A program made the position numbers and the translations under genes. A stretch of 64,000 nucleotides of DNA from Candidatus Eremiobacter antarcticus (GTDB lineage: Bacteria > Vulcanimicrobiota > Vulcanimicrobiia > Eremiobacterales > Eremiobacteraceae), in assembly GCA_003244105.1 (NCBI GenBank), contig QHBK01000019.1, positions 124,001 to 188,000 on the forward strand, read 5' to 3'. The notes under the pieces were generated by a model that ran no database searches, was not told the DNA's origin, and saw only the letters and a list, made by a program, of their open reading frames with translations. Below, piece after piece: positions 35,412 through 53,826 of the stretch. Position 1 is the stretch's first letter. Each line of letters starts with the position of its first letter.

Positions 35412-35603
35412 GAGCCGTCACTGCGCTACGCTCGACATCCAGCGCTGTCGTCGGTCGCACCCGCAACGTGATGGAATCATCGCCGCCTATTGACGGTTGC
35501 CGCCTTGCCGATGACTAGGAAAGAGTCCGCGTGGGAGTCTGCGCCGGGGATAGAGGCGCCGTCTTATCGGCTTTGTCCCGCCCCTTTACGAATTGAGCGA
35601 ATT

Positions 35604-36692
35604 ATGGCAGCAAACGTCAGCGATCTACTCGGCCTCCGCATGGACGAGCTCATGCGCGTCACCATCGAGCGAGGCGCATCCGACCTGCACATGAGCGTGG
35701 GCCTGCCCCCCATGTTGCGGATTGACGGGCGGCTGACGCCGACCGAATTTTCAAAGCTGGCCCCGGACGACACCAAGCGCCTCGTCTACAGCATTCTCAC
35801 CGACGCGCAAAAAGAGAAATTTGAGAAAAACCTCGAGCTCGACTTCTCGCACGGCCTCAAAGGTTTCGGCCGCTTCCGCATCAACGCGTTCCGGCAGCGC
35901 GGCGTCATCGGCGCCGTCTTGCGCGCCATCCCCTCGTCCGTCCCCGCGCTTGGCAGCCTGAATTTGCCGCCGGTGATGGCGGACTTGACGTTGCGGCCGC
36001 ACGGCTTGGTGCTGGTCACGGGACCAACCGGCTCCGGCAAATCGACGGCGCTGGCCTCCATGATCGACGTCATCAACTCGACGATGTCTCGCCACATCCT
36101 CTCGATGGAAGACCCCATCGAGTATCTGCACTTCCATAAGATGTCCATCGTGAACCAGCGCGAGATCGGGCATGACTCGTACAGCTTCTCGAACGCCCTG
36201 CGCGCCGCGTTGCGCGAGGACCCGGACGTGGTCCTGGTCGGCGAGATGCGCGACATGGACACGATCGCCACCACGCTGACCATCGCGGAAACGGGCCATC
36301 TCGTCTTCGCCACGCTGCACACCTCCGATGCAGCGCAGACCATCGACCGCATCATCGACGTCTTTCCGTCGCACCAGCAACAGCAGATCCGCGTGCAAGT
36401 CGGATCGGTGATCGAAGCGATCGTGTGCCTGCGGCTGCTGCCGCACGCGTCCGGCGTGGGCCGCGTGCCTGCATCCGAAGTGATGATCGCCACCCCCGCC
36501 ATCCGCAATTTGATCCGCGAGAACAAGACCCACCAGATCAACAACTCGATCGTGACCAGCCGCGGCATGCACATGCAGACGTTCGACATGTCGTTGCGCG
36601 ATCTCGTGCGCAAGCACATGATCACGGAAGAAGAAGCGCTCGCCGCGTCGACACACCCCGAGGAGTTGCGTAAACTCATCGAAGGCTCATAA
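35604..36692 (+). CDS. pilT: Type IV pilus retraction ATPase PilT
   Basis: Hexameric AAA-like ATPase of 362 residues that powers pilus retraction and twitching. Walker A is GPTGSGKST, the Asp box is SMEDPIEY, Walker B is DPDVVLVGEMRD, and the His box is FATLHTSDA. AIRNLIREN is the PilT-specific motif that separates it from PilB and PilU. The ATG at 35604 is used since the preceding in-frame codons are poorly conserved in character. The 192 bases upstream hold TTGACG at 35490-35495 but no convincing -10 partner. PilB is not in the window. Confidence 0.96.
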   Translation: MAANVSDLLGLRMDELMRVTIERGASDLHMSVGLPPMLRIDGRLTPTEFSKLAPDDTKRLVYSILTDAQKEKFEKNLELDFSHGLKGFGRFRINAFRQRGVIGAVLRAIPSSVPALGSLNLPPVMADLTLRPHGLVLVTGPTGSGKSTALASMIDVINSTMSRHILSMEDPIEYLHFHKMSIVNQREIGHDSYSFSNALRAALREDPDVVLVGEMRDMDTIATTLTIAETGHLVFATLHTSDAAQTIDRIIDVFPSHQQQQIRVQVGSVIEAIVCLRLLPHASGVGRVPASEVMIATPAIRNLIRENKTHQINNSIVTSRGMHMQTFDMSLRDLVRKHMITEEEALAASTHPEELRKLIEGS

Positions 36693-36707
36693 GGAGAGTT
36701 CAACTAC

Positions 36708-36779
36708 ATGCAGATGTCATTATGGTGGCTGCTCATCTTGCTCGTCATCCTTCTGGTTGGCGAAAACACCAAGCTCTAG
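36708..36779 (+). CDS. 23-residue single-span membrane microprotein
   Basis: A tiny reading frame between pilT and pilC. Its ATG follows AAGGAGAG (36691-36698) at a normal spacing and it ends at TAG. The product starts MQMSLWWLLILLVILLVG and ends in a short polar tail (ENTKL), so it is one hydrophobic helix with a charged C-terminus. A strong ribosome binding site, a clean stop and operonic position argue that it is translated. Short hydrophobic peptides often tune larger membrane complexes; here the neighbours PilT and PilC are obvious partners, but that is inference. Confidence 0.6.
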   Translation: MQMSLWWLLILLVILLVGENTKL

Positions 36780-36834
36780 AGCGCGTCGAGCGCGCCGCTG
36801 CCGGCCCGCGAGAACGCACTAAAGGAATCTATTG

Positions 36835-38073
36835 ATGCCGAGTTTTGCTTATCAAGCAAAGGATGCCAGCGGAAAATCCGTCAATGGCGTGATTGAGGCT
36901 GAGAACGAGCGGGTCTTGCGCGCCAAGCTCCGCGAGATGAATTACTACGTCACGGGCATCACCCAAAAGCAGACGGCCGGCCTGAACGCCGACGTCAGCC
37001 AGATGTTCGGCGGCGTGCTCGGCAAGCTGCGGGGCGTCAAGGAACAGTCGCTCGTGGTCTTCTCGCGCCAGTTCGCCACCATGATCAACGCCGGCCTGGC
37101 GATGGTCCGTTGCTTGGACGTGCTCGGCATCCAGACTGAGGACGCTCAGCTCAAGCCCGTCATCATCCAGGTGCGACGCGAGGTCGAAGGCGGCTCCACG
37201 CTGGCCAATGCGCTCGGCAAATACCCGAAAGTCTTCTCACCGCTCTTCATCAACATGGTGCGCGCCGGCGAGCTGGGCGGTATTCTCGACGAAGTGCTCA
37301 ACCGGCTGGCCGGATTCTTGGAAAAAGATTTCAACCTCAAGAAGAAGGTCAAAGCCGCGATGACCTACCCGATGGTCATCCTGGTCATGGCCGTCGTCAT
37401 CGTCATCTTCTTGGTCACCTTCATCTTGCCGACGTTCGTCAGCTTGTTCAGCGGCATGAGCATGAAGCTGCCGCTGCCGACCAAGATCCTGATCACGTTC
37501 ACGAACGGCGCTCGCAATCCGGTCCTCGACATCGGGGCGGCCGTCGTGTTAGCGATCCTGTTCGTCATCTTCAAGCGCTGGACGGCCACTCAGTCCGGCC
37601 GCTTCCAGTTCGACAAATTCAAGCTGAAGCTCCCGGTCTTCGGCCTGCTCATCCGCAAAGTCGCCATTTCGCGCTTTTGCCGCACGCTGGGAGCGTTGCT
37701 GCAGTCAGGCGTTCCGATCATGCAAGCGCTCGAGATCGTGGGCAAGGCCTCGGGCAACGAAGTGGTGGCCGACTGCGTCATCAAGGTGCGCGAATCGGTG
37801 CGGGAAGGCGAATCCATCGCGGTGCCGCTCAACCTTTCTGGCCTTTTCCCGCCCCTGGTCACGCAGATGGTCGCCGTGGGAGAAGAAACCGGTAACCTCG
37901 ACGGCATGCTGACCAAGATCGCCGACTTCTACGATGTTGAAGTCGAATATATGTTGGCGTCGCTCACGTCGCTGCTCGAACCGCTGCTCATCTTAGCCAT
38001 GGGCTTTGTAGTCGGGTTTATCGTCATCTCGGTCTTCCTGCCGCTGTACCAGATCATCGGCAACATCAAGTAG
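36835..38073 (+). CDS. pilC: Type IV pilus platform protein PilC (GspF family)
   Basis: Inner-membrane platform protein of 412 residues that couples the motor ATPases to pilin assembly. It has two GspF/PilC domains (about residues 70-195 and 270-395). FSRQFATMINAGLAMVRCL and FCRTLGALLQSGVPIMQAL are the paired repeats, and three hydrophobic segments are present. The ATG at 36835 with AAGGAA upstream is chosen over a TTG three bases earlier. The sigma factor gene follows three bases after the stop. Confidence 0.95.
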   Translation: MPSFAYQAKDASGKSVNGVIEAENERVLRAKLREMNYYVTGITQKQTAGLNADVSQMFGGVLGKLRGVKEQSLVVFSRQFATMINAGLAMVRCLDVLGIQTEDAQLKPVIIQVRREVEGGSTLANALGKYPKVFSPLFINMVRAGELGGILDEVLNRLAGFLEKDFNLKKKVKAAMTYPMVILVMAVVIVIFLVTFILPTFVSLFSGMSMKLPLPTKILITFTNGARNPVLDIGAAVVLAILFVIFKRWTATQSGRFQFDKFKLKLPVFGLLIRKVAISRFCRTLGALLQSGVPIMQALEIVGKASGNEVVADCVIKVRESVREGESIAVPLNLSGLFPPLVTQMVAVGEETGNLDGMLTKIADFYDVEVEYMLASLTSLLEPLLILAMGFVVGFIVISVFLPLYQIIGNIK

Positions 38074-38076
38074 ACC

Positions 38077-38835
38077 ATGGCGACGCCGGCGCGGCCGCTA
38101 AAGCCCGCACCGGCGCGCGGAGCGGAGTTCACGCAGTACGCGGTCGCCCCGACGCTGCTGCTCCGCGACGAACTCGTGCTCGCCCACAAGGGGCTGGTGA
38201 CGTCCATCGCGCGTCACTGCGCTCAGAACACGGGTCAACGTGACGATCTCGAGCAAGTGGGTTATGTCGGGCTGATCAAAGCGGTCGAGCGCTATGATGC
38301 AAGCTTAGGCGTTCCGTTCGAGGCGTACGCCCGCACGGCGATCACGGGCGAGATCTTCCACTATCTTCGCGACCTTGCACCCGTCATGCGCGTGCCGCGC
38401 TGGTATCGCACGCTCAACCGCCGGCTGCACGAAGCTCACGACCGGCTCACGGTGCAGCTCGGCTACGAACCCACGCCGGAAGCCTTGGCCGCCGACATGC
38501 TGATCACGGTAGAGGGCGTGCAGGAGATCCTGCGCCTGCGGGAATCGTACAACCTCATGTGGCTGGCGGACAAAGGCGAGCGCTCGGACGACCCGCCACA
38601 TCCAGAGGCCATCAGGAGCACGCGGCATCACACGTTTCGTCTCCCGGTCGAGGACCGCATGGTGCTGGACAACGCCATCGAGCGGTTGGCCGAGTTCGAA
38701 CGCCACGTCATAGAGCTGTTCTTCTTCAAAGACCTCACCCAGACGGAGATCGCGCGGCGCCTGGGGTTCTCGCAAAAACATATCTCGCGGACGATCGCCA
38801 CGACGTTACGGAAGCTTAAAGAAGACCTGCATTGA
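38077..38835 (+). CDS. Sigma-70 family group 3 sigma factor (SigB/SigF/FliA-like)
   Basis: RNA polymerase sigma factor of 252 residues with regions 2, 3 and 4 and no region 1. Region 2 is RDDLEQVGYVGLIKAVERYD followed by PFEAYARTAITGEIFHYLRD. Region 3 lies around GYEPTPEALAADM. Region 4 has LTQTEIARRLGFSQKHISRT, the helix-turn-helix. This layout matches the SigB/SigF/SigG and FliA group. It begins three bases after pilC, and its stop overlaps the first glycosyltransferase (TTGA), so it is built into the pilus operon. No anti-sigma factor is adjacent. Confidence 0.93.
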   Translation: MATPARPLKPAPARGAEFTQYAVAPTLLLRDELVLAHKGLVTSIARHCAQNTGQRDDLEQVGYVGLIKAVERYDASLGVPFEAYARTAITGEIFHYLRDLAPVMRVPRWYRTLNRRLHEAHDRLTVQLGYEPTPEALAADMLITVEGVQEILRLRESYNLMWLADKGERSDDPPHPEAIRSTRHHTFRLPVEDRMVLDNAIERLAEFERHVIELFFFKDLTQTEIARRLGFSQKHISRTIATTLRKLKEDLH

Positions 38836-40307
38836 TCCGAGCCGGTCAGCCACGCCCGTTGCCCGACGCGTCGAGCGGCGTTTGGCTCGCGCTCGCGTTG
38901 GCATGCGGAGCAGCGGCACGCTTTTGGAACCTCTCTGGCTCTAGCCTCTTCACTGACGAAGCCTACACATTCTCGCTGAGCGCACTGCGGGTCCCAGCGC
39001 TTTTGCACGCGCTGGCGAGCCACGACTTCCACCCGCCGCTTTTCTATCTGGCAACGCATTACGCCATGGCATGGCTGCGATGGCCGCTCTGGGATTATCG
39101 CTATCTGACCGCCGCCTTCGGGTTGCTGACGATCGCGGCCACCTGGGGGAGCGCGAGGCGGATGTTCGGCGCACCGACGGCAGCGATCGCGGCCTTTGTG
39201 GTGGCGCTCCAGCCGGTGCTCGTGCAGCACGACCGGCTCTACCGCATGTACGCCGTCACCGTCGCTTTGAGCGCTCTATCGTGGTGGCTGCTGCTGGAGA
39301 TCGAACAAGCGGCAGAGCGCAAGAAAGCCGTCTTGCTCGCATGCTACGCGCTCGCGGCCATAGCACTGCCCTTCATAGACTATCTCGGCGCAGTGATGCT
39401 CGTCTGTCAGCTCGCGTATGCGGTCACACGCTCGGCGCTGCGCCCTGCGCTGCTCGCCTTGGGCGCGTCGGCAGCCGCATTTGCGCTGTGGCTGCCCCAG
39501 CTGCTCCAACAAGTGCCGCTGGGCGGCATCGCATTGAGCCCGCCCGCGCTGGACCGAGGCCTGCTCGCAAGCCTCCGCGGCGCGTTCGCCGGCGGGCTGC
39601 CCGTGGAACTCGTCCACATCCGCGGATTTGACGCCGTCTGCGCCTTAGCGCTCGCGGCGACGCTGGTCGCCGGCGCGCTGCTCGCAAAACGCAGCGCATT
39701 GCCCTTTTGGCTTGCGGCGATCGTCGTGCAGATCGTCGCCTCGATCCTGCTCGCTAAAAACTTGGCGTATTTCCCCCGCTACTTGTTGATCGATGTGCCG
39801 CCTGTCGCCATCGCATTCGGACTGATTGTTGCGACCGCGGCGGCAACGCGCCTCAAACCGCTGTGCGTAGGCGCCATGGCGGGCGCCACGGTGCTGTTGG
39901 GCCTGGCGTTGTCGAACACGCTGTTCAATCCGTACTACCAGTTCCCGGATTGGTACGCCGTGAATGCGCTGCTGCTCAAATACGAGCAGCCGGGCGACGC
40001 GATCGTCCTGGACGCCGGTTACGAGTTCTTAGTGGTGCGGGACTACACGGCGTTTCGCCGGCACGACATCGTCAGCTTCATGAACCCCGCGGATTTTGCG
40101 GCGGTGGACCGCTGGATTGCAGCGCGGGGGCATAAGCGCGTCTGGTATGTCGAGCACCAGAACTTCTACTGGGATCCGCACAAAGCCATTGCTTCGGGCT
40201 TGTCGGCAAGCCGGCCCGAACTCGTCCGCTGGCGGCAGGAGAAGGCATCGCCGGTCGATGCCGTGGCAGTGTCGCTGTTCGGCGAGCCGAGCACAGCACA
40301 ACGATGA
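38832..40307 (+). CDS. GT-C membrane glycosyltransferase, paralog 1
   Basis: ArnT/PMT-like protein of 491 residues with about ten helices. The first external loop has LFTDEAYTF with the Asp-Glu pair expected to be catalytic, then HDFHPPLFYLATHYAMAWL and RLYRMYAVTVALS. The C-terminal soluble part starts at NPYYQFPDWYAVNALLLK and ends with KRVWYVEHQ. It starts at TTG overlapping the sigma factor stop (TTGA). It is the first of three tandem paralogs sharing every one of these landmarks. The donor is probably a polyprenyl-phosphate sugar; the acceptor is unknown. Confidence 0.88.
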   Translation: MIRAGQPRPLPDASSGVWLALALACGAAARFWNLSGSSLFTDEAYTFSLSALRVPALLHALASHDFHPPLFYLATHYAMAWLRWPLWDYRYLTAAFGLLTIAATWGSARRMFGAPTAAIAAFVVALQPVLVQHDRLYRMYAVTVALSALSWWLLLEIEQAAERKKAVLLACYALAAIALPFIDYLGAVMLVCQLAYAVTRSALRPALLALGASAAAFALWLPQLLQQVPLGGIALSPPALDRGLLASLRGAFAGGLPVELVHIRGFDAVCALALAATLVAGALLAKRSALPFWLAAIVVQIVASILLAKNLAYFPRYLLIDVPPVAIAFGLIVATAAATRLKPLCVGAMAGATVLLGLALSNTLFNPYYQFPDWYAVNALLLKYEQPGDAIVLDAGYEFLVVRDYTAFRRHDIVSFMNPADFAAVDRWIAARGHKRVWYVEHQNFYWDPHKAIASGLSASRPELVRWRQEKASPVDAVAVSLFGEPSTAQR

Positions 40308-41779
40308 TCCGTGCAGACGCAGCCAGGCCGCTCGGCGGGTCATCGACCGCCTACTGGTGGCTCCCGGTGGCGCTGCTGGTGGGCGCTTTGTGCCGCTTTT
40401 GGAATCTGTCCGCCGGCAGTCTCTTCATCGACGAAGGCTTCACGTTTCATGTGGCGGCGCTGGCTCCCAAAGCCTTGATTTCGGCGGTGGCATACGGCGA
40501 TTATCACCCGCCGCTGTTCTATCTCGTCACGCACTACCTGATGCAGTGGCTGCACTGGCCTCTGACGCAGTATCGCTATCTGACGGCGCTCGCGGGCCTC
40601 GTTACCATCGCAGCTTCCTGGGCGATCGCGCGTGCGCGTTTTGGAGCCGTCGCTGCTGCCCTCACCGCTATGACCGTCGCTCTAGCGCCTGCCCTTGTCC
40701 AATCCGACCGTCTCTACCGCATGTACGCGCCTCTGGTCGCTCTCGCATCGCTGTCCTGGTGGCTGCTCATCCGAATCGAAGACACGACCGTACAAAGACG
40801 CCGGCTGTTGTGGATCGCCTACGGGCTCTGTGCGGTGCTGCTGCCTTACCTGCAGTACTTGGGGGCGCTGATCGTCTTCAGTCAGGCGCTATATGCGCTG
40901 AGTCGACTACGGCACCTGTGGCCGGCGCTGGCCATGAGCGGCGTGGCCACATTCGCCTTCATCCCATGGCTATGGGCGTTTCACGCTCAGTACCAAAACG
41001 GGGGGCTTGTCGGGGATCTGCATTCGGCCGCCTTTTCGTGGGCGGTGATCGCACGGTCGGTGCTCGCGTACGGCTTGTCCGCGAACATCGTCTCGCAGCC
41101 GCACTTCGACGCGCTGTTCAGCGCAGCTGCGCTCGCCGTGTGCGCGGCGGGGCTGTACGCGGGCCGACGCAGCCTCATGCCTTATTGGTGTTTGCCGATA
41201 GCCATGCAGCTGATCCTTTCAATGACCGCCGGCAAGAATCTGATGGTCGCGCGCTATCTGTACGCGTACCTGCCGGCGCTGTGCATCGGCGTGAGCATCC
41301 TGGCGGCACAGCTCTTGCGCACCCGGTATCGGCTTGCCGCGGTCTTCCTGTGTGCGGCGTGGCTTGCGGTGGGCGTCATCGCGGTGCCGAATCTGCTGTT
41401 CGATCCGTATTACCAATGGCCCGACTGGAAAGGCGTCAACACGCTGTTGCTTCAGAACGAACGCCAAGGCGACATCGTGGTGATGGTGCAAGGCGCGGAA
41501 TACTGGATCGTCCGTGACTTGAGCGCATTTCGCGATCGCGACCTTGAGGCACCCATGCGACCGGCCGATGTCACGACGTCCCTGCTGTGGCTGCACCGTC
41601 ATCCCGACAGGCGCGTTTGGTACATCGAGAATCAGGCGGATTCCGTCGACAAGGACCGCCGCATTTTGCGGGCGCTGGATCAAACGCGACATCGCATGGG
41701 CGGCTGGCGACAGCGGCGCTTGTACCGCGAAGATATGGTGCACATCGCTCTTTACGACGTCCCGGCGCCCCGCCGATGA
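40304..41779 (+). CDS. GT-C membrane glycosyltransferase, paralog 2
   Basis: Another 491-residue ArnT/PMT-like protein, the same length as paralog 1. It has LFIDEGFTFHVAALAPKA, YHPPLFYLVTHYLMQWLHW, RLYRMYAPLVALAS, and the C-terminal DPYYQWPDWKGVNTLLL, AEYWIVRDL and RRVWYIENQ. The ATG overlaps the paralog 1 stop (ATGA). The conserved C-terminal region looks like an extracytoplasmic domain that would bind acceptor or lipid. It arose by tandem duplication with paralogs 1 and 3 and is closer to 3. Confidence 0.88.
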   Translation: MIRADAARPLGGSSTAYWWLPVALLVGALCRFWNLSAGSLFIDEGFTFHVAALAPKALISAVAYGDYHPPLFYLVTHYLMQWLHWPLTQYRYLTALAGLVTIAASWAIARARFGAVAAALTAMTVALAPALVQSDRLYRMYAPLVALASLSWWLLIRIEDTTVQRRRLLWIAYGLCAVLLPYLQYLGALIVFSQALYALSRLRHLWPALAMSGVATFAFIPWLWAFHAQYQNGGLVGDLHSAAFSWAVIARSVLAYGLSANIVSQPHFDALFSAAALAVCAAGLYAGRRSLMPYWCLPIAMQLILSMTAGKNLMVARYLYAYLPALCIGVSILAAQLLRTRYRLAAVFLCAAWLAVGVIAVPNLLFDPYYQWPDWKGVNTLLLQNERQGDIVVMVQGAEYWIVRDLSAFRDRDLEAPMRPADVTTSLLWLHRHPDRRVWYIENQADSVDKDRRILRALDQTRHRMGGWRQRRLYREDMVHIALYDVPAPRR

Positions 41780-48498: not shown

Positions 48499-49617
48499 AT
48501 GTCATTCCTCAATAAGTTCTTCTCGCGCGGCAACGGCAAGCTTGTCGGCATCGACTTCGGCTCTCACGAACTCAAAGCGGTTCAGTACGGCGGCAGCTCG
48601 CGCGGCCCCGTGTTGGAGCATGTCTATCGCATTGCCACACCGGCCGGCGCCATCAAAGACGGCGTCGTCGCCGACGCGCAAGTCATCGGTGAGGCGCTGC
48701 GCCAGCTCATGAGCGAAGGATCGTTCAGCGCCCGTCGCACGATCAGCGCGGTGTCGGGACCGACCGTCGTCGTCCGTCAGATCACAATGCCGGTGATGAA
48801 CGAACGCGAACTGCGCGACTCCACCAAGTACGAAGCCGAGCGATTCCTGCCATACTCGGTCGACGAAGCGCAGATCGACTCCAAGATCTTAGGCAAAAGC
48901 GAAGACGGCCAGAACATGGACGTCCTCATCGTAGCGGCGCAACGGGATCTGATCACGTCACAGATGGCCGCCTTGCAACTGGCCGGCTTGACCCCTGCCG
49001 TCGTCGAGGTCGAACCCTTTTCCATGGTGCGCGCCATGATCGCGCCCGATGACGCGCTGTTCGAACAGAACGTGGCCATCATCAACGTGGGCGGGTCGTC
49101 GACCAGCATCAACGTCACGAAGGCCGGCTTTGTGCCCTTCACGCGCAACGTGCCCATCGGGGGCAACGCCATCACCAAGGCCATCGCCAACGGCTTGAAC
49201 GTCTCCAACGAAGACGCCGAAAAGATGAAGCGCGAGAAGGCCCGCATCCTCTCGCAACAAGACACGGGCCCCGTTCCGCCGACGGTGACGCGGATCTTCA
49301 ACGTCATCACGCCGCCGCTGACCGAGCTTGTGACAGAAATACACAAATCGTTGGACTACTTCCGGACGCGCTTCCGGGGTGAGACGATTCAATCGGTGAT
49401 GCTCGGCGGGGGATCCTCGCGCCTTGAAAATTTGGACGCGTTCCTCAGCCACGAGCTTGGGCTGCCGGTCTCATTGGCCAATCCGCTCGAGCGGTCCACG
49501 CACAACGCGGCAGATTTCCCCGCAGACTTCCTGCGCGACGCCGGTCCCTCGATGATCGTCGCCGCCGGCTTGGGCAAACGTGACCTCGGCGCCGAGACTC
49601 GCTCGGCTGCGGCATAG
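48499..49617 (+). CDS. pilM: Type IV pilus actin-like protein PilM
   Basis: Cytoplasmic actin-fold protein of 372 residues that binds the N-terminus of PilN. Phosphate-binding loops are LVGIDFGSHELKAVQ at the start and AIINVGGSSTSINVT in the middle, and VMLGGGSSRLENLD is the adenosine motif. It begins the pilM-N-O-P-Q alignment cluster. The upstream leader holds a large inverted repeat. Confidence 0.95.
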   Translation: MSFLNKFFSRGNGKLVGIDFGSHELKAVQYGGSSRGPVLEHVYRIATPAGAIKDGVVADAQVIGEALRQLMSEGSFSARRTISAVSGPTVVVRQITMPVMNERELRDSTKYEAERFLPYSVDEAQIDSKILGKSEDGQNMDVLIVAAQRDLITSQMAALQLAGLTPAVVEVEPFSMVRAMIAPDDALFEQNVAIINVGGSSTSINVTKAGFVPFTRNVPIGGNAITKAIANGLNVSNEDAEKMKREKARILSQQDTGPVPPTVTRIFNVITPPLTELVTEIHKSLDYFRTRFRGETIQSVMLGGGSSRLENLDAFLSHELGLPVSLANPLERSTHNAADFPADFLRDAGPSMIVAAGLGKRDLGAETRSAAA

Positions 49618-49649
49618 ATGCGTTCTCCACGGAATTTAGGAGCACTCGC

Positions 49650-50225
49650 GTGATCGATATCAATTTACTTCCATCCTCGCAAAGCAAGTCGTTCTTCGCC
49701 CTCGATAAGGTCTTTCGCGTCGGGTTGATCCTGCTTGCGATCGAGCTTGTGGGCATCATCGCGTTCGACATCGCGGAGAACTCGCGCATCAACCGGCTCA
49801 ACACCCAGATCGCCGATTGGACGCAGCGTGTGGCCGTGGTGCAAGAGCAGGTCAAAGAGGTCGATGATCTGCGCGACAAGGTCGCGGACCTGCGCGCCAA
49901 GGCAGACCTCCTCGAGCGCATCAAGCAGAGTCCTATCCAGGTGGCGGAGATCATCTCTGACATCGGTCACAACACGCCGCACGGCGTCTGGTATTCGACC
50001 GTCACGCTCGTGCACGTCACGGACGGCGGCACGGTCACCCTGGCCGGCGACACCAGCTCGTATCGGGAGGTCGCTGATCTCATGCTCAACTTGGACGGCT
50101 CGCCCGTGTTCGGCGACGCTGTGCTGACGACGAGCACGCAACAAACGTCGGTCGCTTCACCCGCCGGCGGAGACGTACAGTTCTCCGTCATCGGCACCCT
50201 TAGCCCAGCGGTGGTAGGCCAATGA
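49650..50225 (+). CDS. pilN: Type IV pilus assembly protein PilN
   Basis: Bitopic inner-membrane protein of 191 residues. The conserved INLLP motif (MIDINLLPSS) that binds PilM is at the very start, one membrane helix spans about residues 24-45, a coiled coil follows (about 47-92), and a ferredoxin-like periplasmic domain ends it. It starts at GTG with TTAGGAG six bases upstream. Its stop overlaps the pilO start (ATGA). Confidence 0.92.
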   Translation: MIDINLLPSSQSKSFFALDKVFRVGLILLAIELVGIIAFDIAENSRINRLNTQIADWTQRVAVVQEQVKEVDDLRDKVADLRAKADLLERIKQSPIQVAEIISDIGHNTPHGVWYSTVTLVHVTDGGTVTLAGDTSSYREVADLMLNLDGSPVFGDAVLTTSTQQTSVASPAGGDVQFSVIGTLSPAVVGQ

Positions 50226-51091
50226 ATCCGAAGTCAAATCAAACCAGCCGTATCCTGATGATCGCGGGCGCCTTGGCGCTCGTGATGATCGCGGCATATT
50301 TCACCGTCATCCAGCAGAAGCTGAACCAAGTGGCGGCGTCACAAGCGCAGCTGGACGCTTTGCAAACGCAATACGCAAGCCTCAAGCGCGTCGCCGACCA
50401 GAAGCCCATGTATCTGGCGCTCATCCATCAGGTGCAGACGCGTCTGAACGGCGTCGAGCTGACGGCGGATTCGCGCACCTACGTGCCGTCGTATCTCAAA
50501 CAGATCGAAGCGCTGGCAAAGCGCGACGGCTTGACCGTGACGGCGATCGTGCCTCAACCGCTCGTCTCACCAACGCCTGCGCCGTCAGGTGCCGGGGGCC
50601 CGAACGCCAAGACCGTCCAGGATATACCAGTCGTCGGAGCGCCGCTCAAGAGCGCGGGCCGCGCGCTGAACGCCTCGAACACGGTGACGGCGCAGACCAA
50701 CTCAGTGGCTGCCGCCACGGGGGCCACACCGGTCGCCGCCGGAGCTCCCTTGCCCGCGACAGCGGAAGGCGCAGCACCGGACACACTGCCCAATAAGAAC
50801 GTGCGCCCAGGCTCGGCACGCTCGAGCGCCATCGCCTATCTGAACCAGTCGTTCTCGCAAGTGCCGATAAACATGGAGATGGCCGGCACCTACGTGCAAC
50901 TGCAGAAGTTCTTGCGCGATCTCAACAAGTTCCCCAAACTCATCGGCGTCGGCAGCCTGACGCTGAGCGCCACGCGTGGCCTCGTCGGCGAGACGCCCAA
51001 GCTGCACGTCGTCCTTCCTATCGTAGCTTACCGCCTCAGCCCAAGCGCGCCGCCGCCGGCCGTGGTGCCGGCCCCTGCGAGCGGAGACTAA
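50222..51091 (+). CDS. pilO: Type IV pilus assembly protein PilO
   Basis: PilO-like protein of 289 residues. One membrane helix near residues 11-30 is followed by a coiled coil and a periplasmic domain. It is longer than the usual 200 residues owing to an Ala/Pro/Thr-rich insert at about residues 115-195 that splits the periplasmic domain. The end segment VPINMEMAGTYVQLQKFLRD is the typical PilO fold. It is coupled to pilN by ATGA and partners PilN in the alignment complex. Confidence 0.88.
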   Translation: MNPKSNQTSRILMIAGALALVMIAAYFTVIQQKLNQVAASQAQLDALQTQYASLKRVADQKPMYLALIHQVQTRLNGVELTADSRTYVPSYLKQIEALAKRDGLTVTAIVPQPLVSPTPAPSGAGGPNAKTVQDIPVVGAPLKSAGRALNASNTVTAQTNSVAAATGATPVAAGAPLPATAEGAAPDTLPNKNVRPGSARSSAIAYLNQSFSQVPINMEMAGTYVQLQKFLRDLNKFPKLIGVGSLTLSATRGLVGETPKLHVVLPIVAYRLSPSAPPPAVVPAPASGD

Positions 51092-51092
51092 C

Positions 51093-51623
51093 ATGATGAA
51101 GGCATCTGTCAACGCTACGCTCATCGCTCTCACGCTAGCACTCGTCGCCTGCGGCGGCCAACCGCCTCCTGCGGCGGGCCCCGTCAACGCCGTGGCTGAA
51201 GTCACGCCGCCGCCGGCCGCTACCACACCGGTTCCAATCGTGCGCTCGCGCGCCATCGCAGGCGCCGGCAGGACTGACCCCATGGTCGTGCTCTTCGGGA
51301 GCAACACCGGTGGAGCGAATTCCGCGCCCGCCGCACCACCCGACAGCACGCGCGTTGCCGTGTCGAGCTTCCCCAACATTCCGACTCTGCCCGGCTTTGA
51401 GAACGCGCCCACGAGCATGCTCAAAGACGCTTGGACGGGCGTGCGCCTCACAGGCGTCGTCCAAAACGGCGGCTACGTCGCGATCCTCGAGGCGGACGGG
51501 AAATCATTCTTCGTGCGCCGGGGTGACCGCGTCGATAACACCTATACAGTCGTAGCCATAGGACCAGACTTCATTACGCTCGCCAAACACAACGAAGAGC
51601 GGCACTTCTCGCTAGGGGGTTGA
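51093..51623 (+). CDS. PilP-like pilus lipoprotein
   Basis: A lipoprotein of 176 residues at the place where pilP normally lies. The signal ends in a lipobox LALVAC, followed by a flexible Pro/Ala-rich region of about 80 residues. The C-terminal domain (about residues 110-176: VRLTGVVQNGGYVAILEADG, then FFVRRGD) resembles the PilP/GspC homology-region fold that links PilN/PilO to the secretin. Overall identity to PilP would be low, so I leave the symbol blank. Confidence 0.75.
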   Translation: MMKASVNATLIALTLALVACGGQPPPAAGPVNAVAEVTPPPAATTPVPIVRSRAIAGAGRTDPMVVLFGSNTGGANSAPAAPPDSTRVAVSSFPNIPTLPGFENAPTSMLKDAWTGVRLTGVVQNGGYVAILEADGKSFFVRRGDRVDNTYTVVAIGPDFITLAKHNEERHFSLGG

Positions 51624-51630
51624 ATACATA

Positions 51631-53826
51631 ATGCATCGGCAACTTCGGTTGACGTCGGCCTGGCTGGGTGGGTGCGTTCTCGCGCTCGCCGGCTTGGCTT
51701 CTCCGCAGGCCGGCCGAGGCGCCGACAACACCGTCAACGACATTTCGTATGCCACGCACGGCGACGCATTCCAACTGTCGGTGGCGGCTTCCGGACCGGT
51801 CTCCACGCGCATCCGCCGCTACGCGGTGGATGAAAAGCATCACGTCGTCGATCTCGTCGTCGACGTATCGCCGGCATATTATGACGGCCACACCAAGGTC
51901 ATTGGGTTCTCCAAAGGACCGTTGCAACAGGTTCGCGTCGGCCAGCTCTCAGTGTCGCCGGCCGTCATGCGGATCGTCGTGGAATCTTCCGGCACCCCCA
52001 AGTATGACGTGAAGTCGACGGACGCTCGCAAGGTCGTTCTCAACGTACGCACGCCGCAAGTAGCGTTCGCCTTACCGGCGAGCGAGGCCATTTCTGCGGC
52101 ACACATGGCGACGAAGCGCAACGATGTGGCGCTCGACGAAACACCGACGCAATCCAGCCAGAGCAGTGCCGCAACACCGGCGAAGGCGGCGCCAATCATC
52201 AAGACGGCGCCGGCCGCGCCGGCGCCGGCAGTGAAGACCGCAGCAATTGCTCCAGAAGCCAAGGCCCCGGCACCGGCGCCTGCCGCGAAGAGCACAACGC
52301 CGAAGGCAACGACCATCGCCACGGTTGCGAGCACAAAGATCGCAGCGCAGCCTGCTGCGCCCGCGAAGACCGCAACACAGCCTGCTGCGGCTCCGAAGGC
52401 GGCGGTCGTACCCAAGCCGGCTGTGGTTCATGCACAACCCACGGTCGTCGCGCACGTTGACGCAGCTCCCAAGGCGGCTCCGGCTGCTGCTCCGGTGCAT
52501 GTGGCAGCGGCGATGCGTCCGCGCGTCATAGCGATGTCCACGCCGAACCCATGGTTGCCGGGCGGCAAGTACTATTGCAAGGTTCCAAATCACCACACCT
52601 CATCCGGTTCCATGAGCCAGATGAACGCAGGCAACGCGATGGCGCCCCCGCCGCCGCCGTCGAGCATGAACAGCATGTCGAGCAATCGCAATGTCACGCT
52701 CGACGTGAAGAACGCGGACATCCTGGACGTCCTCAAACTGCTGGCGAACGAAAGCGGTCAGAACATCGTCGCGACACAAAACGTGAAGGGTGTCGTGACC
52801 GTCTCCCTGCATGACGTGCCCCTGCGGACGGCATTGGATCTCATCGTCCGGACGAACGGTCTGGACTATCGCCGCATGCGCAACATCTACATCGTCGGGC
52901 CCGCCGCTGACCTCAACGCACAGTTCGGTTCGATCGGGCAAGTCGCCACGCAGACCGTCGCGTTTCCCATCAAGTACGCGCTGCCGGCCGACCTCGCCAA
53001 GCAGCTCGCGGGAATCCTGCCGGCAAGCTCCTTCACTGTCGATGCTCGCACCAATACGGTGCTTGTGAGCGGCAGCGCGGACATCATCCAATCGGCTAGA
53101 AACTTCATGGCGTTGTCTGACGTGCCGGCCCCGCAAGTCGTGTTCGAGGTCAAGGTCATCGATATCACGCGGAACAACGACACGTCGAACACCGGCATTC
53201 AGTACAGCGGCGTTTCGGACTTCGACCTCTTCGAAAATAGCATCACGGGTGGTTCCCTCGCGGCGCCGCCCGCGGTGACCTCCGGCAATTCGTTCGCGCC
53301 GCAACCGTTCACGCGCAACGCCCTGTTCATCCAGGCCAAAGTGAACTACTTGCTCACGCATAACGAAGCTCAGCTGCTGGCGAACCCGCGCGTGACGGCT
53401 CTGCACAACCAGCAGGCGAGCCTGCTGATAGGTCAGACCTATCCGCTGGTGTACTACGATCCGCGTTCGGGTCAGTTCCAGGCGCAATACATCGACATCG
53501 GCGTCAAGCTCATCATCACACCGGTGATCAACACCGATGGATATATCACGACGACCATGCACGTCGAACGCAGCGTCATCACGGGACTCGTGCAGCAGTT
53601 CCCCATTCTGAGCAACCGCAAGGCGGACGATATCCTGCGCGTCAAGGACGGTGAGACGATCGTGCTCGGCGGCCTGCTCGACGACGAGACGACGCGAAGC
53701 ATGTCGAAGATACCGCTGCTGGGCGACCTGCCGGTTTTCGGCGCGCTTTTCCGGAATATCCAGACGACCAAGATCCATAACGAAGTGGTGTTCCTGATAA
53801 CGCCACATATCGTCAGCGAACGCTAA
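51631..53826 (+). CDS. pilQ: Type IV pilus secretin PilQ
   Basis: Outer-membrane secretin of 731 residues forming the pilus exit pore. A signal peptide ends near residue 30. One AMIN domain, which binds peptidoglycan, covers about residues 38-135. A long Ala/Lys/Pro-rich linker follows (about 155-300). The N0/STN domain is at about 350-425 (VTLDVKNADILDVLKLLANE), an N1 domain at 440-495, and the secretin barrel at 505-731, with ANPRVTALHNQQASLLIGQ and the terminal GETIVLGGLLDDE, LLGDLPVFGALF. It ends before a perfect terminator. Confidence 0.95.
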   Translation: MHRQLRLTSAWLGGCVLALAGLASPQAGRGADNTVNDISYATHGDAFQLSVAASGPVSTRIRRYAVDEKHHVVDLVVDVSPAYYDGHTKVIGFSKGPLQQVRVGQLSVSPAVMRIVVESSGTPKYDVKSTDARKVVLNVRTPQVAFALPASEAISAAHMATKRNDVALDETPTQSSQSSAATPAKAAPIIKTAPAAPAPAVKTAAIAPEAKAPAPAPAAKSTTPKATTIATVASTKIAAQPAAPAKTATQPAAAPKAAVVPKPAVVHAQPTVVAHVDAAPKAAPAAAPVHVAAAMRPRVIAMSTPNPWLPGGKYYCKVPNHHTSSGSMSQMNAGNAMAPPPPPSSMNSMSSNRNVTLDVKNADILDVLKLLANESGQNIVATQNVKGVVTVSLHDVPLRTALDLIVRTNGLDYRRMRNIYIVGPAADLNAQFGSIGQVATQTVAFPIKYALPADLAKQLAGILPASSFTVDARTNTVLVSGSADIIQSARNFMALSDVPAPQVVFEVKVIDITRNNDTSNTGIQYSGVSDFDLFENSITGGSLAAPPAVTSGNSFAPQPFTRNALFIQAKVNYLLTHNEAQLLANPRVTALHNQQASLLIGQTYPLVYYDPRSGQFQAQYIDIGVKLIITPVINTDGYITTTMHVERSVITGLVQQFPILSNRKADDILRVKDGETIVLGGLLDDETTRSMSKIPLLGDLPVFGALFRNIQTTKIHNEVVFLITPHIVSER
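52150..52520 (+). repeat. Ala/Lys/Pro-rich low-complexity linker in pilQ
   Basis: Degenerate repeats of the kind KTATQPAAAP, KIAAQPAAPA and PKAAVVPKPA fill about 120 codons between the AMIN domain and the secretin domains. The basic character suggests a flexible, periplasmic tether, possibly contacting peptidoglycan. At DNA level the units are imperfect and not tandem-exact. Confidence 0.7.

Follow-up and report, generated by a model that had tools for sequence, protein, structure and literature searches.

A conserved, probably single-helix microprotein encoded upstream of one PilC type in Eremiobacterota

The 64,000-nucleotide stretch of Candidatus Eremiobacter antarcticus DNA analysed here (the window) carries, between pilT and pilC, a 23-codon frame that is, on its pattern of conservation, almost certainly a genuine protein-coding gene. 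We lean towards regarding its product, from sequence and by analogy with CydX, as a small membrane protein of one helix that serves the PilC platform of type IV pili as a subunit or assembly factor. The microprotein gene occupies positions 36708 to 36779 of the forward strand, with an ATG at 36708 and a TAG stop ending at 36779, and encodes MQMSLWWLLILLVILLVGENTKL; the frame, its AAGGAG ribosome site and its stop codon were thus as the original prediction had described them. The AAGGAG site (36691 to 36696, forward strand) overlaps the pilT stop codon, and its spacing of 11 nt to the ATG is slightly long yet workable. In the product, a predicted hydrophobic helix of approximately L5 to G18 is followed by the polar C-terminal tail ENTKL.

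The predicted location between the genes for the retraction ATPase and the platform protein was confirmed by Pfam and NCBIfam searches. The upstream gene, at 35604 to 36692 (forward strand, stop TAA at 36690 to 36692), matched TIGR01420 pilT_fam with an E value of 7e-143 and 476 bits; its start was inferred from homology, as the mechanical open reading frame begins at 35490. The downstream gene, at 36835 to 38073 (forward strand), matched Pfam T2SSF and the NCBIfam PilC/GspF models and belongs to the type designated here PilC1. It has its own ribosome site (AAAGGA, 36821 to 36826, forward strand), so pilC is independent of read-through from the upstream frame. The window also encodes PilM, PilO and a secretin (48499 to 53826), and PilB-type ATPases are encoded elsewhere in the host genome; from its gene content, the type IV pilus machine of the host looks complete.

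Further genes follow pilC on the forward strand. A sigma-70 family factor with regions 2, 3 and 4, sigma-28-like, lies at 38077 to 38835 and begins 3 nt past pilC. Most Eremiobacterota loci, and some from Armatimonadota (L086, L095, L103), have a relative of this factor downstream of pilC, and because of this recurrence the gene may encode a sigma factor dedicated to the pilus cluster. Two membrane proteins of 491 residues are encoded in tandem at 38832 to 40307 and 40304 to 41779, with a 4-nt overlap. They are visibly alike (ARFWNLS..GSLFTDEAYTF and CRFWNLS..GSLFIDEGFTF) and look like duplicated membrane glycosyltransferases.

The original prediction called for the frame to be looked for in relatives, and it was found in every assembled locus of the same family and across 14 families; the lack of conservation of frame or ribosome site that would have refuted the prediction was clearly not seen. 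In same-family genomes the gap between pilT and pilC measured 102 to 208 nt, and the frame was present inside every readable gap, encoding for example MQMSLLWLLILLVILVVGQATKL. Loci whose PilC was 62-69% identical encoded MWWWLIPLAIFIVGNLSKI, MSVLWWLLPMAIIIVGTLSKI and MGIFWWVVPVAVIIVGHLTTL, among others. Across the phylum the microprotein had 19 to 26 residues, and among 33 aligned sequences the distance from the tryptophan to the stop was fixed at 17 residues, with no insertions or deletions between them. Counting from the stop, W was found at -17 in 33/33, G at -6 in 29/33 and V at -7 in 28/33; K or R stood at -2 in 24 sequences and I, L or V at -1 in 32, while the hydrophobic positions freely exchanged I, L, V and M. 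The stop codon lay at the same place in relatives, with TAA, TAG and TGA interchanging. Shine-Dalgarno sites of the microgenes were usually strong, up to AAGGAGGTG, and distant families had also kept the start region. One same-family genome (G001, locus L012) carried two microgene copies in tandem (1312-1386 and 1399-1473), both intact and with their own starts.

Synonymous and nonsynonymous changes, whose comparison the prediction had called for, indicated purifying selection. Over the last 17 codons, the pooled pN/pS was 0.31 for the family of the window and 0.40 for other families, in comparison to 0.67-5.2 for shifted frames; these figures are approximate, since synonymous sites were near saturation. 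The within-family amino-acid identity of 0.71 was greater than in all 2,000 simulations run at equal nucleotide divergence (mean 0.46, maximum 0.63). The frame is very short, and hydrophobic NTN-rich codons may look open by chance, but a chance open frame has a virtually negligible probability, as it is refuted by the conservation over 14 families, by the selection and by the controls for the profile described below.

The microprotein family profile and PilC were both run over the same 149 genomes from Candidatus Eremiobacterota, the phylum of the host. PilC1, defined here by a PilC identity of 57% or above, was present in 41 of them, and the microprotein accompanied it in all but one, always on the same strand and directly upstream. 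The match was at E < 1e-5 in 38 of the PilC1 genomes, and a diverged form (..WWWLLYLAITLVGLAYRV) in G067 and G068 is included in the count. The micro-bearing genomes are spread over the 14 families and are therefore not merely a few close relatives. The sole PilC1 genome lacking the microprotein was G131 (locus L059), the assembly of which is 61% complete. The remaining genomes, without PilC1, gave no microprotein match at E < 0.05; in G134, G142, G145 and G066, microprotein and PilC1 were absent together. The match counts are partly circular, the profile having been built from some of the matches, and two controls were run. When a profile of the window's family only was searched against 15,151 six-frame fragments from loci L038-L111, the microframes of other families made up the top 15 hits after two same-family copies. 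A reversed-sequence profile of equal composition, run over the same 149 genomes, gave nothing below 1e-3 (best 0.007). The microprotein thus has two of the traits expected of a protein of the CydX-like kind, a short coding frame that is conserved by purifying selection and a presence that tracks one clade of a large protein, here PilC (40/41 versus 0/108, and the PilC tree).

The gene orders point to the platform protein rather than the ATPase as the partner. In L038, L039, L043 and L141 (families f6 and f7/f8) the order was pilT, a second pilC (41-48% identical), the microgene and PilC1; in these loci two platform genes stand in tandem, the more divergent one lying between pilT and the microgene. 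Because the microgene stays with PilC1 when a second pilC intervenes, its partner is probably PilC, and PilT was disfavoured as a candidate on the same arrangements. The setting between pilT and pilC described originally is thereby refined, the constant neighbour being one PilC type rather than PilT. Other loci (L041, L042, G071) had the order pilB, pilT, microgene, PilC1. Where a genome encoded twelve or more PilC/GspF paralogues, it had a single microgene, at PilC1. In the PilC tree, the PilC1 proteins with a microprotein formed one clade, in which L059 was the only member lacking it; PilC2 was sister to this clade, the PilC of the Calescibacterium phylum came next and that of families f2/f3 lay far off, support in the PilC1/PilC2 part being moderate to low (several values of 0.66-0.91, some lower). 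Neither PilC2 nor the f2/f3 proteins were accompanied by a microgene. The f2/f3 loci (L013-L030) belong to the window's own class; their PilC was 33-40% identical, and their pilT-pilC gap was mostly 2-30 nt. More distant classes have the window-type PilC although f2/f3 do not, a distribution suggesting that the pil cluster has been replaced or transferred within the window's class.

The distance from the microgene stop to PilC1 ranged from 13 to 239 nt in the loci measured. Since some gaps were only 13-19 nt, the W-to-stop distance was fixed and the last residues were conserved, the frame might act as a regulatory leader or arrest peptide, its translation or stalling near its C-terminus controlling the translation of pilC. 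We consider this improbable. The exchanges among I, L, V and M are in the style of a membrane helix, pilC is preceded by a ribosome site of its own, and many of the gaps, whose length varies as given above, leave too little room for a switch hairpin. There was also no Rfam match and no forward terminator between the microgene and pilC. The tandem second copy in L012 and the relatives in the Calescibacterium phylum, which lie far upstream of, or unlinked to, a similar gene, likewise argue against it. An attenuator of the trp-leader type, prompted by the Trp codons, was rejected: several members contain just one Trp, these residues come early in the frame, and neither a terminator nor a switch was found.

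Outside Eremiobacterota, all seven genomes of the Calescibacterium phylum encoded a stand-alone relative that was not beside pilC. These relatives (MGWWWLVALAIILVGLSYPDEF; pattern MGWWWL[VL]xLAI[IL]LVGLSYPD[EQT]F) had a good Shine-Dalgarno site and in six of the seven adjoined a Zn_ribbon_TFIIB gene, lying about 15-620 nt upstream of it (L147:2410-2478, L148:2367, L149:2365, L154:1501 and, on the reverse strand, L150:2467 and L156:1501). The seventh, MWWWLLALVFFLVLENEKII in G185 (L157:1504, reverse strand), had a GGGGGTG ribosome site and was followed by a GC-rich hairpin and a T-run; its tail resembles the ENTKL tail of the window protein. Homology of these copies rather than convergence is favoured, by the common WWWL-x2-LAI-I-L-V-G core and the common PilC lineage, even though 20 residues cannot prove it. 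Searches with the short profile, by which absence is not proven, found the microprotein in 0/291 Armatimonadota genomes and in none of the further genomes tested, actinobacterial ones included; of the genomes from the phylum of G153, 2/43 gave weak matches, both inside long frames. Together with its absence from the other-phylum loci among L061-L111, this led us to reject the microprotein as a general feature of pilT-pilC operons. The suggestion that such a micropeptide had been missed generally is accordingly true of Eremiobacterota and of the unlinked copy in the Calescibacterium phylum, but does not extend to the Armatimonadota, actinobacterial and other genomes that were searched.

The unlinked relatives are also the main support for a general membrane microprotein that is not specific to pili, for example one modulating the membrane or another membrane complex, and that is co-transcribed with pilC by happenstance in Eremiobacterota. 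All of them lie away from pilC, most beside Zn_ribbon_TFIIB and the G185 copy elsewhere again, and we regard this explanation as a serious although distinctly less probable one. Within Eremiobacterota, the microgene follows PilC1 through rearrangement and the two are absent together, which speaks against happenstance. Moreover, the PilC most closely related to PilC1 and PilC2 of Eremiobacterota is that of Calescibacterium, which leaves room for a common pilus role there.

Pfam, NCBIfam and PDB sequence searches returned no significant match to the microprotein, with nothing in Pfam at E ≤ 1, and no paper on a microprotein at pilT/pilC was found in the literature searched. The microprotein lacks the mark of a pilin or minor pilin: inspection of the 33 aligned sequences by eye showed no class III prepilin signal (G-F/E with helix). 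A shortened TatA-like protein-export helix was considered. The microprotein has a short hydrophobic helix in common with TatA/TatE, and NCBIfam TatA models aligned to residues 1-17 of the window protein (E ~0.22, 11.7 bits). However, the curated cut-offs of 54-104 bits (83 for the compared model) are far above this score, the FG-KK hinge is missing, and so is the amphipathic helix, the protein ending 5 residues past the membrane helix; the single form from another family that was tested, MVSMSVLWWLLPMAIIIVGTLSKI, had no TatA match. A TatA-like identity is thus extremely unlikely.

The closest analogy was found in CydX, a small subunit of cytochrome bd oxidase of 37 aa with the motif YxxWxxG..E/D and a cytosolic N-terminus (PMC4325964). 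Like the microprotein, CydX is a short single helix whose gene shares an operon with that of a large membrane protein, tracks one partner clade (PMC4325964), is highly conserved at only a few residues, Trp and Gly among them, and is often unannotated. The two differ in that no sequence match was obtained (no Pfam family matched at E ≤ 1; NCBIfam lists no CydX model) and in the orientation predicted from the tail charges, which is opposite; CydX is also a true subunit, whereas the association of the microprotein with PilC is deduced from linkage. AcrZ, the small partner of AcrB (PMC7267776), KdpF and DltX are likewise single-helix membrane microproteins that act on a larger membrane machine, although the machines are different and the microprotein has no family match. 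The presumed partner belongs to the GspF/PilC platform family, the member of which PulF has been modelled as a trimer (PMC10790770); a search of that paper for such a component turned up no small integral subunit, and the microprotein would be an addition to this platform.

As a subunit or assembly factor of the platform, the microprotein would be made from a pilT-micro-pilC transcript just ahead of PilC and would enter the inner membrane as a single short helix, its N-terminus out and its K/R-bearing C-terminal tail in the cytoplasm. This orientation is predicted from the charge bias of the family (+2/-7 on the N-side versus +27/-4 on the C-side). The helix would then pack against the transmembrane helices of PilC, acting as a small subunit or as an assembly or stability factor, and a platform of the modelled PulF type, being a trimer, would leave outer surfaces for it. 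Contacts might involve three elements: the cluster of Trp residues at the outer interface, the V-G step towards the inner end, and the tail with its x-L-[TS]-K-[IL] pattern. Several observations weigh against a PilC subunit. At ~14 residues, the hydrophobic stretch is on the short side for crossing the whole membrane, the unlinked Calescibacterium relative implies that the microprotein need not be encoded beside PilC, and L059 has a PilC1-type gene without it, albeit in the incomplete assembly noted above. Only a handful of residues separate PilC1 from the PilCs lacking a microprotein, with no clear docking site. PilC1-specific docking residues were rejected as too few: they came to five columns, two of which are Met (M90, M185) that is Leu in L059. 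A bolder version appears rather unlikely: here the microprotein would be an integral platform subunit, stoichiometric and not seen before, that lines or gates the PilC oligomer and goes back to an ancestor shared by Eremiobacterota and the Calescibacterium phylum.

The microprotein illustrates that a protein conserved throughout a phylum can go without a family model owing to its length, and its motif can be used for finding further members. Of all parts of the type IV pilus motor, the platform protein is understood least, and a dedicated helix of ~20 residues tied to it would, if true, be a new component of a very widely studied machine.
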